Shown here: piece by piece, positions 13,565 to 49,503 of the stretch
Numbering within the stretch: the first letter of the stretch is position 1
How the letters are laid out: the number at the start of each line of letters is the position of its first letter
From: Ignavibacteria bacterium
Lineage (GTDB): Bacteria > Bacteroidota > Ignavibacteria > Tepidaquicellales > OLB5
Length of the DNA: 56,728 bases
NCBI GenBank assembly: GCA_030835085.1
Contig: JAUQWQ010000038.1
Location: forward strand, 1 to 56,728
Direction: 5' to 3'
Position numbers and translations under genes: made by a program
Notes under the pieces: model-generated
What the model saw: the letters and a program-made list of their open reading frames with translations, nothing else
The model's database searches: none
What the model was told of the DNA's origin: nothing

Positions 13565-13831
13565 AGGTATATGTTCGATTTATATTCCATTTAATGCTTT
13601 GTAAGTCCTCCAAGTGTCAGAGTCAGTCCTCTTATGTAAGACCTCCCCTAAATCCCCTCCTTGGTAAGGAGGGGACTTAAAATCGAAAAACAGAACTCTT
13701 ATTGTCTCCCCTCTGTCAGAGCCAGATCTACGACTTACCAAGCCGAAGGACTGCCCCAGCATGTTGGGAGTGTCCGGCAGCTGCCGGACGAGGGCTACGC
13801 CTTGCTGAGCGAAGCTAAGAAAGGGGTCGCT
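13565..13831. repeat. Repeat mosaic upstream of CapA gene
   Basis: Holds a copy of the 'cctcccctaaatcccctcc' repeat (about 13636-13680), an inverted 'ctgtcagagccagatctacg' block (13716-13735), 'gccgaaggactgcccc' (13741-13757) and a TCCGGCAGCTGCCGGA palindrome at about 13772-13788. The capA promoter must lie in or beside these repeats. No gene seen. Confidence 0.75.
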
Positions 13832-14203
13832 TTATTTAACAGCCAATTCTTCTATCTTTTTCTTTAAACTCTCTATAACATTCTCAAGGGTTTCATAAAT
13901 TTCGGTATTTGTAAATCTTATAAATTGAATATTAAGCGGTCGAATTTCATCTTCTCTACTTCTGTCATATTCTAATTCTTCAACTGTTTGATGAGTAACT
14001 CCGTCAACTTCAATAGCTAATTTTAGTTCAGTGCAATAAAAGTCAACGACATATGCTCCAATTCCAAATTGTCTCCGAAATTTGAATCCAAGAATCTTTC
14101 TGTTTTTTATCTCGTCCCAAAGTATTGCTTCAGCTTTGGTCATATTATTTCGAAGCGTTTTCCTTTTTTCGTAATCTATTTTCCTGTTGTAGATTTTGCC
14201 CAT
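13832..14203 (-). CDS. DUF559-type endonuclease-like protein
   Basis: DUF559 proteins are compact Vsr-like relatives of the PD-(D/E)xK nucleases. The 123-residue chain has the family pattern: NNMTKAEAILWDEIKNRKI, then GFKFRRQFGIGAYVVDFYC, where the Asp of VVDFYC, and KLAIEVDGVTH with its Glu and Asp, are the expected metal-binding residues, then RDEI-like and IQFIRFTNTEI. It ends in a helix rich in Lys and Glu. The length is normal. DUF559 genes are widely spread and often solitary, as here between two repeat clusters; a DNA-repair or mobile-element role is guessed in the family but not shown. Confidence 0.88.
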   Translation of the reverse strand: MGKIYNRKIDYEKRKTLRNNMTKAEAILWDEIKNRKILGFKFRRQFGIGAYVVDFYCTELKLAIEVDGVTHQTVEELEYDRSREDEIRPLNIQFIRFTNTEIYETLENVIESLKKKIEELAVK

Positions 14204-14381
14204 GTTAATATCTGCTTCTCAGACTTCCTCCGTCAAAGCTGGTTCTGCGATTTAAATCTTTCGTAAGACCTCCCCTAAATCCCCTCCTTGGTAAGGAGCG
14301 GACTTTGAAAAGCAAACTATTGCAAACTTATTGTCTCCCCCTTACCAAGGGGGAGTGTCCGGCAGCTGCCGGACGAGGGGG
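14204..14381. repeat. Repeat cluster downstream of lgt
   Basis: Contains 'cctcccctaaatcccctcc' (about 14268-14304), 'cccccttaccaaggggg' (14336-14353) fused to a TCCGGCAGCTGCCGGA palindrome (14356-14372). The lgt stop follows directly, so the right-hand hairpin may also serve as its terminator. Confidence 0.75.
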
Positions 14382-18191: not shown

Positions 18192-18444
18192 TTATCATGA
18201 TTAGATGTTAAACATGAATATCAGTATAGTTATTTTGATAAATTAACTTTTTGAAAATAAACTAAAAAGCTGTCAGTGCTGAAGCCTATATGTTTTGTGT
18301 CAGCGTTACCCCGCTATAAATGGCGGGGTTATAAGATTCATATTCGCAGAGAGGTTATTGATCATTTTTTTAATATTCTAACCCCACCCTTCAGGGTGGG
18401 GATTATAAAGTTAAACTAACCGGGCTTTAGCCCTGACCCGTAAT
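18192..18444. repeat. REP-type palindromes on the left flank of the RAYT gene
   Basis: Contains ccccgc/gcgggg palindromes at about 18309-18328 and 18380-18402, spacer, and gggctttagccc at about 18423-18434, ending seven bases before the transposase ATG. The right flank (18866-18927) carries the same two palindromes in inverted order. Confidence 0.8.
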
Positions 18445-18876
18445 ATGTCATTTGTAAGAGTTTGGATCCATGCTGTCTGGGGAACTAAAAATCGTTCTCA
18501 TATCTTAACTAAGGATGTCAGGAAAGTCCTTTTCGGACACATAAAATCAAATGCAAAAGAAAAGGGAATATATGTTGACTATGTAAATGGTTATACTGAC
18601 CATGTACACTGTCTGTTTACATTAAATGCAGATCTGAGTTTATCAAAGACTTTACAACTCATCAAAGGAGAAGCTTCTTTTTGGGCTAATGAAAATAATT
18701 TAGTTGAACCAAAACTTAAATGGGCTGATGATTATTTTGCAGTTTCGGTAAGTGAGTCAATTGTTGATAAAGTGAGAAAATACATCAAGAAACAGGAAGA
18801 ACATCATAAAAAGATGACTTTTCAGGAAGAATACGAGGATTTTATCAAGAAATTCAATTTACAAAGTCAGGGCTGA
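18445..18876 (+). mobile_element. REP-associated tyrosine transposase (RAYT; IS200-like Y1 transposase)
   Basis: Y1 transposases of the IS200/IS605 superfamily cut and rejoin single-stranded DNA at hairpins; the RAYT branch is domesticated and acts on REP repeats. The 143-residue protein begins MSFVRVWIHAVWGTKNRSHI, with the metal-binding HUH motif as H53-V-H55 (TDHVHCLF) and the nucleophile Tyr 113 in KVRKYIKKQEEHHKK. Length and motifs match. The gene lies between REP palindromes arranged as an inverted pair: ccgggctttagccctgac before and gtcagggctgaagcccgg after. Related solo units occur at 1713-1772 and 4200 in the same window, so it is probably active in trans. It is a likely source of the palindrome spread in this genome. 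Confidence 0.93.
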
Positions 18877-18927
18877 AGCCCGGTTGTAATATAACGGCAT
18901 GACCCCCGCCATAAATGGCGGGGTTAA
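18866..18927. repeat. REP palindromes, right flank of RAYT gene
   Basis: The palindrome gggctgaagccc overlaps the end of the RAYT gene, followed by a spacer and cccccgccataaatggcggg. It mirrors the left flank, so together they form an inverted unit. A further hairpin attcccgcctt/cgcgggaat follows at about 18966-18985. Confidence 0.82.
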
Positions 18928-18998
18928 AAGAATCGAAATATAATTGTAATTTAAATTGATAGAAGAGATTCCCGCCTTCGCGGGAATGGACAAAAAAT

Positions 18999-27746: not shown

Positions 27747-27780
27747 TGTACCCTCGATCCGGCTTAGCCGGATGGCCTGC
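27747..27780 (-). repeat. tRNA-Arg 3' fragment in which the T-arm is replaced by a palindrome
   Basis: 27747-27757 repeats the tRNA 3' end (tgtaccctcga), 27773-27780 repeats tggcctgc of the variable region, and between them 27758-27772 is tccggcttagccgga. In the real tRNA, at 27784-27817, the same two flanks enclose caggagtcgaacctg. Fifteen bases replace fifteen bases, and the replaced part is exactly the T-arm hairpin. The palindrome is of the genome's TCCGG..CCGGA family. Confidence 0.82.
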
Positions 27781-27785
27781 TTTTG

Positions 27786-27859
27786 TACCCTCGACAGGAG
27801 TCGAACCTGTGGCCTGCGGTTTAGGAAACCGACGCTCTATCCTACTGAGCTACGAGGGC
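27786..27859 (-). tRNA. tRNA-Arg(CCU), left copy at island end
   Basis: Read on the minus strand: acceptor GCCCTCG, D-arm with TAGCTCAGTAGGATAGAGC, anticodon loop TTCCTAA with anticodon CCT, T-arm ACAGGTTCGACTCCTGT, and CGAGGGT. The cloverleaf is complete; CCA is not encoded. It is 74 nt with discriminator A. The 3' side lies in chromosomal DNA, the 5' side in the island. It is the target of the integrase and forms the left end of the island. Confidence 0.93.
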
Positions 27860-28004: not shown

Positions 28005-29039
28005 ATGTTTCTTGCTAAAGGATTCAAAGGTTACTATTACCTGTATTACAACGATGAACTAACAGGTAAAAGAAGAAAAGTATCAACAAAATCTAAACTA
28101 AAAACCGAAGCAAATGAATTTCTTAGACTCTTCAAAACTAATGAAATTAAATCTAAGACTAATACTAATAAACCTTATTGCTTGACAGAGCTACAAACTG
28201 AAGTATTGAAATATGTAAACTATAATTTAAGACAATCAACTGTTGGATTATATGATAGATGTTTCAAAATTCTTATAACTGTGTTAGAGAATAAGCCACT
28301 AAAATTCATAACAATCCATGATATAGAAAAGTTTAAGAATTATCGTTTAAATCAAGTAAGCATAAGTACGACCAATATTGATATAAGAACTTGTAAAGCC
28401 ATTTTCAATCTTGCTTTGAAGTGGAAATGGATAAATAATAATCCGGCTAAAGAAGTAAGCCTTTTGAAAGTCGCCCAAAAAGAAATATTGTCTTTCTCAA
28501 ACAATGAATTAGATATAATATTCAATTATGGTAAAATTCATAACATTAAAAACATTATTGAATTTGCTTTATTCACTGGTTGCAGGTTGAACGAAATATT
28601 GAATGTACAATTTAAAGATATCAACTTAATTGAAGGTATTATTACAATCAATAATAAACCTGATTTTAAAACAAAAAATGGTAGAGTACGCAAGCTCCCA
28701 ATTTCTCAAAAATTGAATAACTTATTACAAAGTATATTAAACAATGAAGGTAATATTTTTAATTTGTACAATCCAGAGCAGTACCTTTTCACAAAGAATG
28801 GATTAAAGTATAATAAAGATTATGTTACAAAAAGCTTTAAGAAAATATTAAGAAAATCTAAACTGCCTGAGAAGTTTCATTTTCATTGTTTAAGGCATAC
28901 TTTCATTACCAATCTTATAAAGAAAAATGTAAATATTAATTACGTTAAAGAATTAGCTGGCCATGCGAATATTTCAACAACTATGAATTATATCCACATT
29001 GTCACTGATGATTTAAGGGCAGCGGTAAATCTAATTTAA
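28005..29039 (+). CDS. Tyrosine recombinase / island integrase
   Basis: Integrates and excises the island by breaking and joining at the tRNA-Arg site. The 344-residue protein has an N-terminal SAM-like core-binding domain (about 50-150, KPLKFITIHDIEKFKNYRLN) and the catalytic domain with Arg in FALFTGCRLNEIL, HxxR in FHFHCLRHTFITNL, and Tyr in HANISTTMNYIHIVT. All catalytic residues (R, H, R, H, Y) are visible, so it should be active. The first 50 residues resemble an arm-binding domain (KGFKGYYYLYYNDELTGKRR). It is the first island gene, transcribed inward from the left end; the nearest arm-like repeat is 40 bp upstream. Confidence 0.95.
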   Translation: MFLAKGFKGYYYLYYNDELTGKRRKVSTKSKLKTEANEFLRLFKTNEIKSKTNTNKPYCLTELQTEVLKYVNYNLRQSTVGLYDRCFKILITVLENKPLKFITIHDIEKFKNYRLNQVSISTTNIDIRTCKAIFNLALKWKWINNNPAKEVSLLKVAQKEILSFSNNELDIIFNYGKIHNIKNIIEFALFTGCRLNEILNVQFKDINLIEGIITINNKPDFKTKNGRVRKLPISQKLNNLLQSILNNEGNIFNLYNPEQYLFTKNGLKYNKDYVTKSFKKILRKSKLPEKFHFHCLRHTFITNLIKKNVNINYVKELAGHANISTTMNYIHIVTDDLRAAVNLI

Positions 29040-49098: not shown

Positions 49099-49122
49099 GG
49101 TTTAGGAAAGGGTCAAAAAGAG

Positions 49123-49196
49123 CACCCACGACAGGAGTCGAACCTGTGGCCTGCGGTTTAGGAAACCGACGCTCTATCCTACTGAGCTACGAGGGC
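49123..49196 (-). tRNA. tRNA-Arg(CCU), right copy at island end (acceptor mismatch)
   Basis: Identical to the left tRNA over 68 bp from its 5' end, but the 3' acceptor strand is CGTGGGT in place of CGAGGGT, which makes a T-T mismatch with position 5, and the discriminator is G in place of A. The anticodon is CCT. Its 5' flank is chromosomal, so it keeps the original promoter, while its 3' end is from the island. It marks the right end. Confidence 0.78.
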
Positions 49197-49503
49197 AATT
49201 TACTACTGAGCTATCACGCCTTTGGCGTGACTTCATCACGATTACATCGTGGTTTGCGAGGGCAGATTGAAATCTTGTGTTTCTAGTATCCTACTGAACT
49301 ATCACGCCTTTGGCGTGACTTCATCACGATTACATCGTGGTTTGCGAGGGCATAAAATTGTGATAATTAACAAATATAGCAATTTTTAGAAACAGATAAA
49401 ATATAAATAATTTACAAAAATATCATTCAATGATACACATACGAATAATAAGTCATTTATATTTATTCCATAATAAACTATATTTCTCAACTTTTTAAAA
49501 ATT
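49197..49503. repeat. Two tRNA-Arg 5' fragments interrupted by a 43-bp double palindrome
   Basis: Each fragment reads ctactga(g/a)cta, then 43 bp, then cgagggca, the last being the tRNA's 5' end on the minus strand. The 43 bp sit at 49214-49256 and 49302-49344 and hold two palindromes, tcacgcctttggcgtga and cacgattacatcgtg. The second fragment keeps more of the D-arm (tatcctactgaacta). The remaining 150 bp to the DinB gene are AT-rich and hold no gene. Confidence 0.8.

Follow-up and report, generated by a model that had tools for sequence, protein, structure and literature searches.

Hairpin-interrupted tRNA-Arg(CCU) pieces in an Ignavibacteria genome: probable gene-less relics of small tRNA-homing elements

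Introduction

The tRNA genes are standard targets of genomic islands. The window analysed here, a contig of 56,728 nt from a 4.05-Mb Ignavibacteria genome (labelled G000), carries an island at positions 27785-49196 with a tyrosine recombinase, type I restriction genes and a complete tRNA-Arg(CCU) at each end, and broken pieces of the same tRNA, interrupted by palindromes, are found outside its ends. This raises the question of how these pieces arose. The first-pass annotation ascribed them to older islands that were inserted at this place and lost, and to palindromic elements, possibly with a cognate RAYT, that entered the remnants.

Structure of the tRNA-Arg(CCU) locus

The two tandem tRNA-Arg 5' fragments that had been described at the right end, each split at the junction of the acceptor stem and the D-arm by a 43-bp double palindrome, are present as two 62-nt units (49203-49264 and 49291-49352) that are 98% identical at an offset of 88 bp (Table 1). 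On the minus strand, each unit consists of TGCCCTCG, 43 nt and TAGCTCAGTAG, i.e., one leader T with tRNA-Arg(CCU) nt 1-7, the insert between nt 7 and 8, and nt 8-18. The outer copy runs on to nt 22 with one C-to-T change (TAGTTCAGTAGGATA), and both units sit between the native promoter-like motif and the intact tRNA. The 43-nt insert contains two perfect palindromes with arms of 7 bp and 6 bp and loops of 3 nt. Its fold as single-stranded DNA has a z-score of -5.5, with 0 shuffles equal to it, and TCACGCCTTTGGCGTGA is expected by chance 0.05 times in the window. Remnants of tRNA-Arg do lie outside both island ends as claimed, with the 5' units on the right and a 3' piece on the left, which reads GTACCCTCGA, TCCGGCTTAGCCGGA and TGGCCTGC, with a hairpin of equal length in place of the T-arm.

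Table 1. Positions of the tRNA-Arg(CCU) copies and associated features in the window
Feature	Position	Strand	Details
Intact tRNA-Arg(CCU), right copy	49122..49196	-	3' acceptor strand CGTGGGTGC mismatched with the GCCCTCG 5' strand
Inner 5' copy	49203..49264	-	tRNA nt 8-18 at 49203-49213; insert at 49214-49256; TGCCCTCG at 49257-49264
Leader-like spacer, 22 nt	49265..49286	-	kept between copies in relative G012
Outer 5' copy	49287..49352	-	tRNA nt 8-22 at 49287-49301; 43-nt insert at 49302-49344; acceptor strand at 49345-49352
TATATTTG, Bacteroidota-type promoter-like motif, native leader	49371..49378	-	accompanies the outermost copy; distance to the tRNA 182 nt
Intact tRNA-Arg(CCU), left copy	27785..27859	-	promoter-like TAAATTTG on the island side, 31 nt upstream
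3' copy	27748..27780	-	tRNA nt 43-50, 15-nt hairpin TCCGGCTAAGCCGGA for the T-arm, nt 66-75; then native 3' flank
Island-encoded tyrosine recombinase, between the two tRNAs	28005..29039	+	separate from the finding

Comparison of the locus in related genomes

The SDR gene that lies 3' of the tRNA served to recognise the orthologous tRNA-Arg(CCU), and the relatives with the neighbouring gene are Ignavibacteria MAGs. When these genomes were compared at the same locus, the tRNA pieces recurred: similar 5' units are present in G012, which has four of them, and in G005, G002, G001 and G010, and they are absent in G006, G004 and G011, the number varying from 0 to 4 between sister genomes. The 3' pieces were detected in G005 (two, with T-arm hairpins) and in G006 (one, decayed). 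The distance between the native promoter and the tRNA is 32 nt in G006, 182 nt in G000 and 438 nt in G012, and it is the outermost 5' copy that keeps this promoter. Similarly, in G000 and G005 the displaced 3' copy is the one that adjoins the native 3' flank aaagaagcaaaat, which in G002 comes directly after the tRNA itself. The native flanks sit on the displaced pieces, and therefore the tRNA's own ends have been pushed outwards.

No island was present at tRNA-Arg(CCU) in the fetched stretches of G012, G005, G002, G001 and G010. Because relatives lacking the island have such pieces, the pieces are not products of the present island, and a dependence of the remnants on a local island or integrase does not agree with these genomes. 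The supposition that earlier tyrosine-recombinase islands repeatedly entered tRNA-Arg(CCU), brought replacement ends and were lost, with the palindromes arriving later, draws on the tyrosine-recombinase island between the two tRNA-Arg copies and on G008, in which the tRNA leader and the integrase-end sequence at the same tRNA are near-identical. However, it leaves the hairpins at the arm boundaries unexplained, and the same scars occur at many tRNA types beside genes for GIY-YIG nucleases, not integrases. We thus regard this history as improbable. Genomic islands that target tRNA genes also restore their target and leave partial tRNA duplicates, but they do so with tyrosine recombinases and clean direct repeats, in contrast to the hairpin-interrupted copies observed here.

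The suggestion of the first-pass annotation that the second unit could be a copy of the first one fits both the identity of the units in G000 and the matching unit of G012, which has a different insert, and tandem copying or gene conversion is the best reading of their near identity. This different sequence, insert B, is located at the same junction between nt 7 and 8 in G012 and G001; as a hairpin it was not significant (z -0.8).

With a conserved promoter motif on one side and the tRNA on the other, the pieces could also be functional, either as elements of a transcribed leader with a regulatory or assisting role in the processing of tRNA-Arg(CCU) or as decoys for tRNA-attacking enzymes. In some contexts, the predicted folding of the tRNA is better with the hairpin version (0.64 vs 0.47 here), but the effect is inconsistent over nine loci, and the pieces are missing at the same tRNA in three sister genomes and vary in number among the others, which makes a function very improbable. 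The related idea that the hairpins guard the real tRNA from misfolding in a joint transcript was set aside after mixed results, as the hairpins performed better than the native arms at 5/9 loci, about equally at 3/9 and worse at 1/9.

Palindromes and Y1_Tnp genes

The exact palindrome of the insert occurs twice in the 4.05-Mb genome, both times at the tRNA-Arg(CCU) locus. The absence of the 43-bp unit from other places was part of what the first-pass annotation named as refuting its reading, and elsewhere the unit was found in sister genomes at the same locus only; a dispersed family of the element was not found beyond this locus and its orthologues in the genome and relatives searched. Short GC-rich palindromes in high copy number and six Y1_Tnp genes in G000 are reminiscent of REP/RAYT systems. 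Such a system is characterised by a high-copy palindrome flanking its cognate Y1_Tnp gene, and the 43-bp unit is present twice at one locus. Four of the six Y1_Tnp genes have nearby palindromes of their own that are of a different type, two have none, and no Y1_Tnp gene in the genome bears the 43-bp unit, so a RAYT origin for it was rejected. Unlike in REP/RAYT systems, the hairpins of the tRNA copies studied here go with GIY-YIG genes.

Among the Y1_Tnp genes, the IS200-like/RAYT-like gene at 18445-18876 has palindromes of the ACCCCGCTATAAATGGCGGGGT type on both sides (flanks 18300-18990), and palindromes matching this type are located on both sides of the Y1_Tnp genes on C115 and C182. The small ORF at 13832-14203 (region 13653-14374), which by eye is DUF559-type nuclease-like, is flanked by the repeated palindromes TCCCCTCCTTGGTAAGGAGGGGA and GTCCGGCAGCTGCCGGAC and is possibly another nuclease-palindrome unit.

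In its layout the insert also resembles the double-hairpin elements found in mitochondria of fungi and algae, which are reported as mobile palindromes and likewise have two short hairpins with a spacer. Those elements are organellar and are not known to be linked with a nuclease gene and displaced copies of a tRNA. Away from tRNA genes, at loci with TCCCGC...GCGGGA, double hairpins recur that have a CTTCG/CTGCG-like spacer and share the layout of the 43-bp insert.

Scarred tRNA copies as a general pattern

The locus is one of many in the genome. Same-strand partial self-copies were found within 500 bp of 16/42 tRNA types in G000, the corresponding values being 4.2% for cross-controls and 0 for the opposite strand (p about 6e-12). 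In G009, 6/30 tRNAs have self-copies, and in G026, a member of another family, 1/31. Over all loci, 54/93 gaps inside the copies contain a perfect stem of 6 bp or more, whereas 1.7 are expected from shuffles. The stems are mostly framed as TCC...GGA and affect the arms and loops of the tRNA, in many cases by a flush swap of 15-18 nt. A hairpin replaces or interrupts the anticodon arm in copies of Gly, Arg-UCU, Ile, Leu, Pro and Gln tRNAs, the T-arm or T-loop in those of Arg-CCU, Asp, Asn, Met and Gln, and the D-loop in those of Gln, Cys and Ser. The insertion point between nt 7 and 8 is specific to the tRNA-Arg(CCU) locus among the tabulated copies.

The tRNA types tend to have stems of their own, e.g., TCCGCC in Met and TCCCGA between nt 51 and 60 in Asp, the latter in several families. 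The Asp hairpin shows weak covariation that is at most suggestive, with variation confined to the two inner pairs. Beyond the tRNA type, the hairpin type showed no clear signal of following the nuclease lineage (identity 0.444 vs 0.430). The palindrome TCCCGC-N3-5-GCGGGA is found 51 times in the genome vs 0 for the control; about 12 copies are in tRNA copies and 39 are outside recognised ones, so that the hairpins also occur apart from the elements.

Two further arrangements were noticed. The 3' copies of tRNA-Glu at L015/L204 (G000:C108) form a tandem array with a period of about 156 bp, in which every copy has hairpins and a terminator of its own, and at L009 and other TCCCGC...GCGGGA loci hairpins are nested in hairpins.

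GIY-YIG genes adjoining tRNA genes

A small GIY-YIG gene is often situated between a tRNA and its copy, and it is with such endonuclease genes, not with integrases, that the tRNA pieces go. The encoded proteins match PF01541 with E-values from 9e-17 to 1.5e-9, the catalytic residues are conserved, with Y5, Y16, G18, R26, H30 and E63 invariant in alignment A1, and the similarity to phage homing-endonuclease profiles is weak. In G000, four of the five small GIY-YIG genes are near a tRNA (chance about 3e-8). The search with a profile from six tRNA-linked proteins covered 294 genomes in the class and 247 in the phylum. Of the best GIY-YIG loci, 25/30 in the class and 20/22 further ones in the phylum were within 400 bp of a tRNA, 45/52 in total, a figure that is biased upward since the query was built from tRNA-linked genes. 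Self-copies were present at 24/30 and 19/22 of these loci, respectively (43/52 in total).

The association is also apparent at single loci. The sole tRNA with self-copies in G026 is the one with two GIY-YIG genes. At tRNA-Pro(CGG), the nuclease gene is present in G009 and the copy in G000 is gene-less, while the element at tRNA-Met is of the 5' type in G000 and of the 3' type in G009. Similarity is higher among nucleases that share a tRNA type than in any label shuffle (0/5000), a comparison that is confounded by kinship. In L237, from another family, an occupied tRNA-Arg(CCU) consists of a 5' copy split between nt 21 and 22 by a foldback, the GIY-YIG gene and the tRNA with a duplicated leader; this locus is the direct counterpart of the tRNA-Arg(CCU) finding with the nuclease present.

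These data bear on an alternative in which ordinary tandem duplication copies the tRNA, dispersed REP-like palindromes enter the neutral copies and the nuclease genes are bystanders. The dispersal of TCCCGC-N3-5-GCGGGA and the many scarred tRNA copies that have no nuclease gene could be understood in this way. However, the hairpins take up arms and loops of the tRNA, frequently in the form of flush swaps and with stems that tend to be type-specific, GIY-YIG genes are linked to tRNA genes far more often than by chance, and the 43-bp palindrome is not associated with any Y1_Tnp gene. We consider this alternative unlikely.

A tRNA-homing element as the probable source

The anatomy of the locus and its recurrence, the nuclease-tRNA linkage, the native flanks on the displaced pieces and the ordered hairpins suggest that the pieces are probably gene-less remnants or non-autonomous versions of small tRNA-homing elements similar to SegB. 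A tested precedent is the SegB protein of T-even phages, a freestanding GIY-YIG homing endonuclease that cleaves within tRNA genes and thereby drives tandem amplification of the tRNA together with segB (PMC13096335). Its preferred motif is RAWTSGAAC (PMC13096335). On the other strand this motif reads GTTCSAWTY and corresponds to the tRNA T-loop, which is among the sites hit in the copies described here. Several copies have an intact T-loop and a swapped anticodon arm, and therefore one shared cut site is only a possibility. The two systems share a freestanding GIY-YIG nuclease gene adjoining tRNA genes, but the putative homing elements reported here are on bacterial chromosomes, one per tRNA type. 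Moreover, their displaced tRNA pieces carry arm-swapping hairpins, whereas the SegB paper (PMC13096335) does not mention a hairpin or palindrome.

A full element would comprise an intact tRNA gene, an adjoining freestanding GIY-YIG gene of about 80 codons and, beyond that gene, the displaced original tRNA piece. Elements of the 5' type, to which the right end here would belong, would push the native promoter and the 5' part of the tRNA upstream and provide both a new leader and a new start of the tRNA. With those of the 3' type, represented by the left end, the displaced 3' part would stay with its native 3' flank. We infer that the nuclease cuts the tRNA gene and that repair installs the element and restores the tRNA, after which recombination may multiply or delete units. 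As for the origin and role of the hairpins, those at arms and loops may disarm the displaced pieces, which would then not be cut again and/or would have no activity as tRNA parts. The nuclease gene would have been lost from tRNA-Arg(CCU) in G000, leaving the two near-identical 5' units. No GIY-YIG gene was found in the window or at the tRNA-Arg(CCU) loci of the same-genus genomes fetched, and because none is left there, the filing of the locus rests on parallels with occupied loci, by which it may be classed only as a gene-less remnant. The restriction of the insertion point between nt 7 and 8 to this locus and the non-significant hairpin of insert B also speak against this source.

More tentatively, and with a chance that we put somewhat below even, these elements could represent a chromosomal class of tRNA-homing GIY-YIG genes that is widespread in the phylum, with one lineage per tRNA type, a built-in hairpin that disarms the displaced target piece by blocking re-cutting and/or tRNA activity, and scarred copies as its fossils. 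The widespread chromosomal arrangement is apparently undescribed, as no chromosomal version of tRNA-homing GIY-YIG elements was found in the openly accessible literature covered. If the proposal is true, many puzzling broken tRNA copies in bacterial genomes would be fossils of a selfish nuclease gene, SegB-like tRNA homing would gain a chromosomal counterpart, and both the invasion of an essential single-copy gene and self-immunity to the element's own enzyme would become testable.

Tandem nuclease copies with fixed spacing are common among the GIY-YIG loci. Five tandem GIY-YIG genes are present at each of G184:C1:120132-122174 and G422:C1:135230-136930, with a spacing of 450 bp and about 365 bp, respectively.
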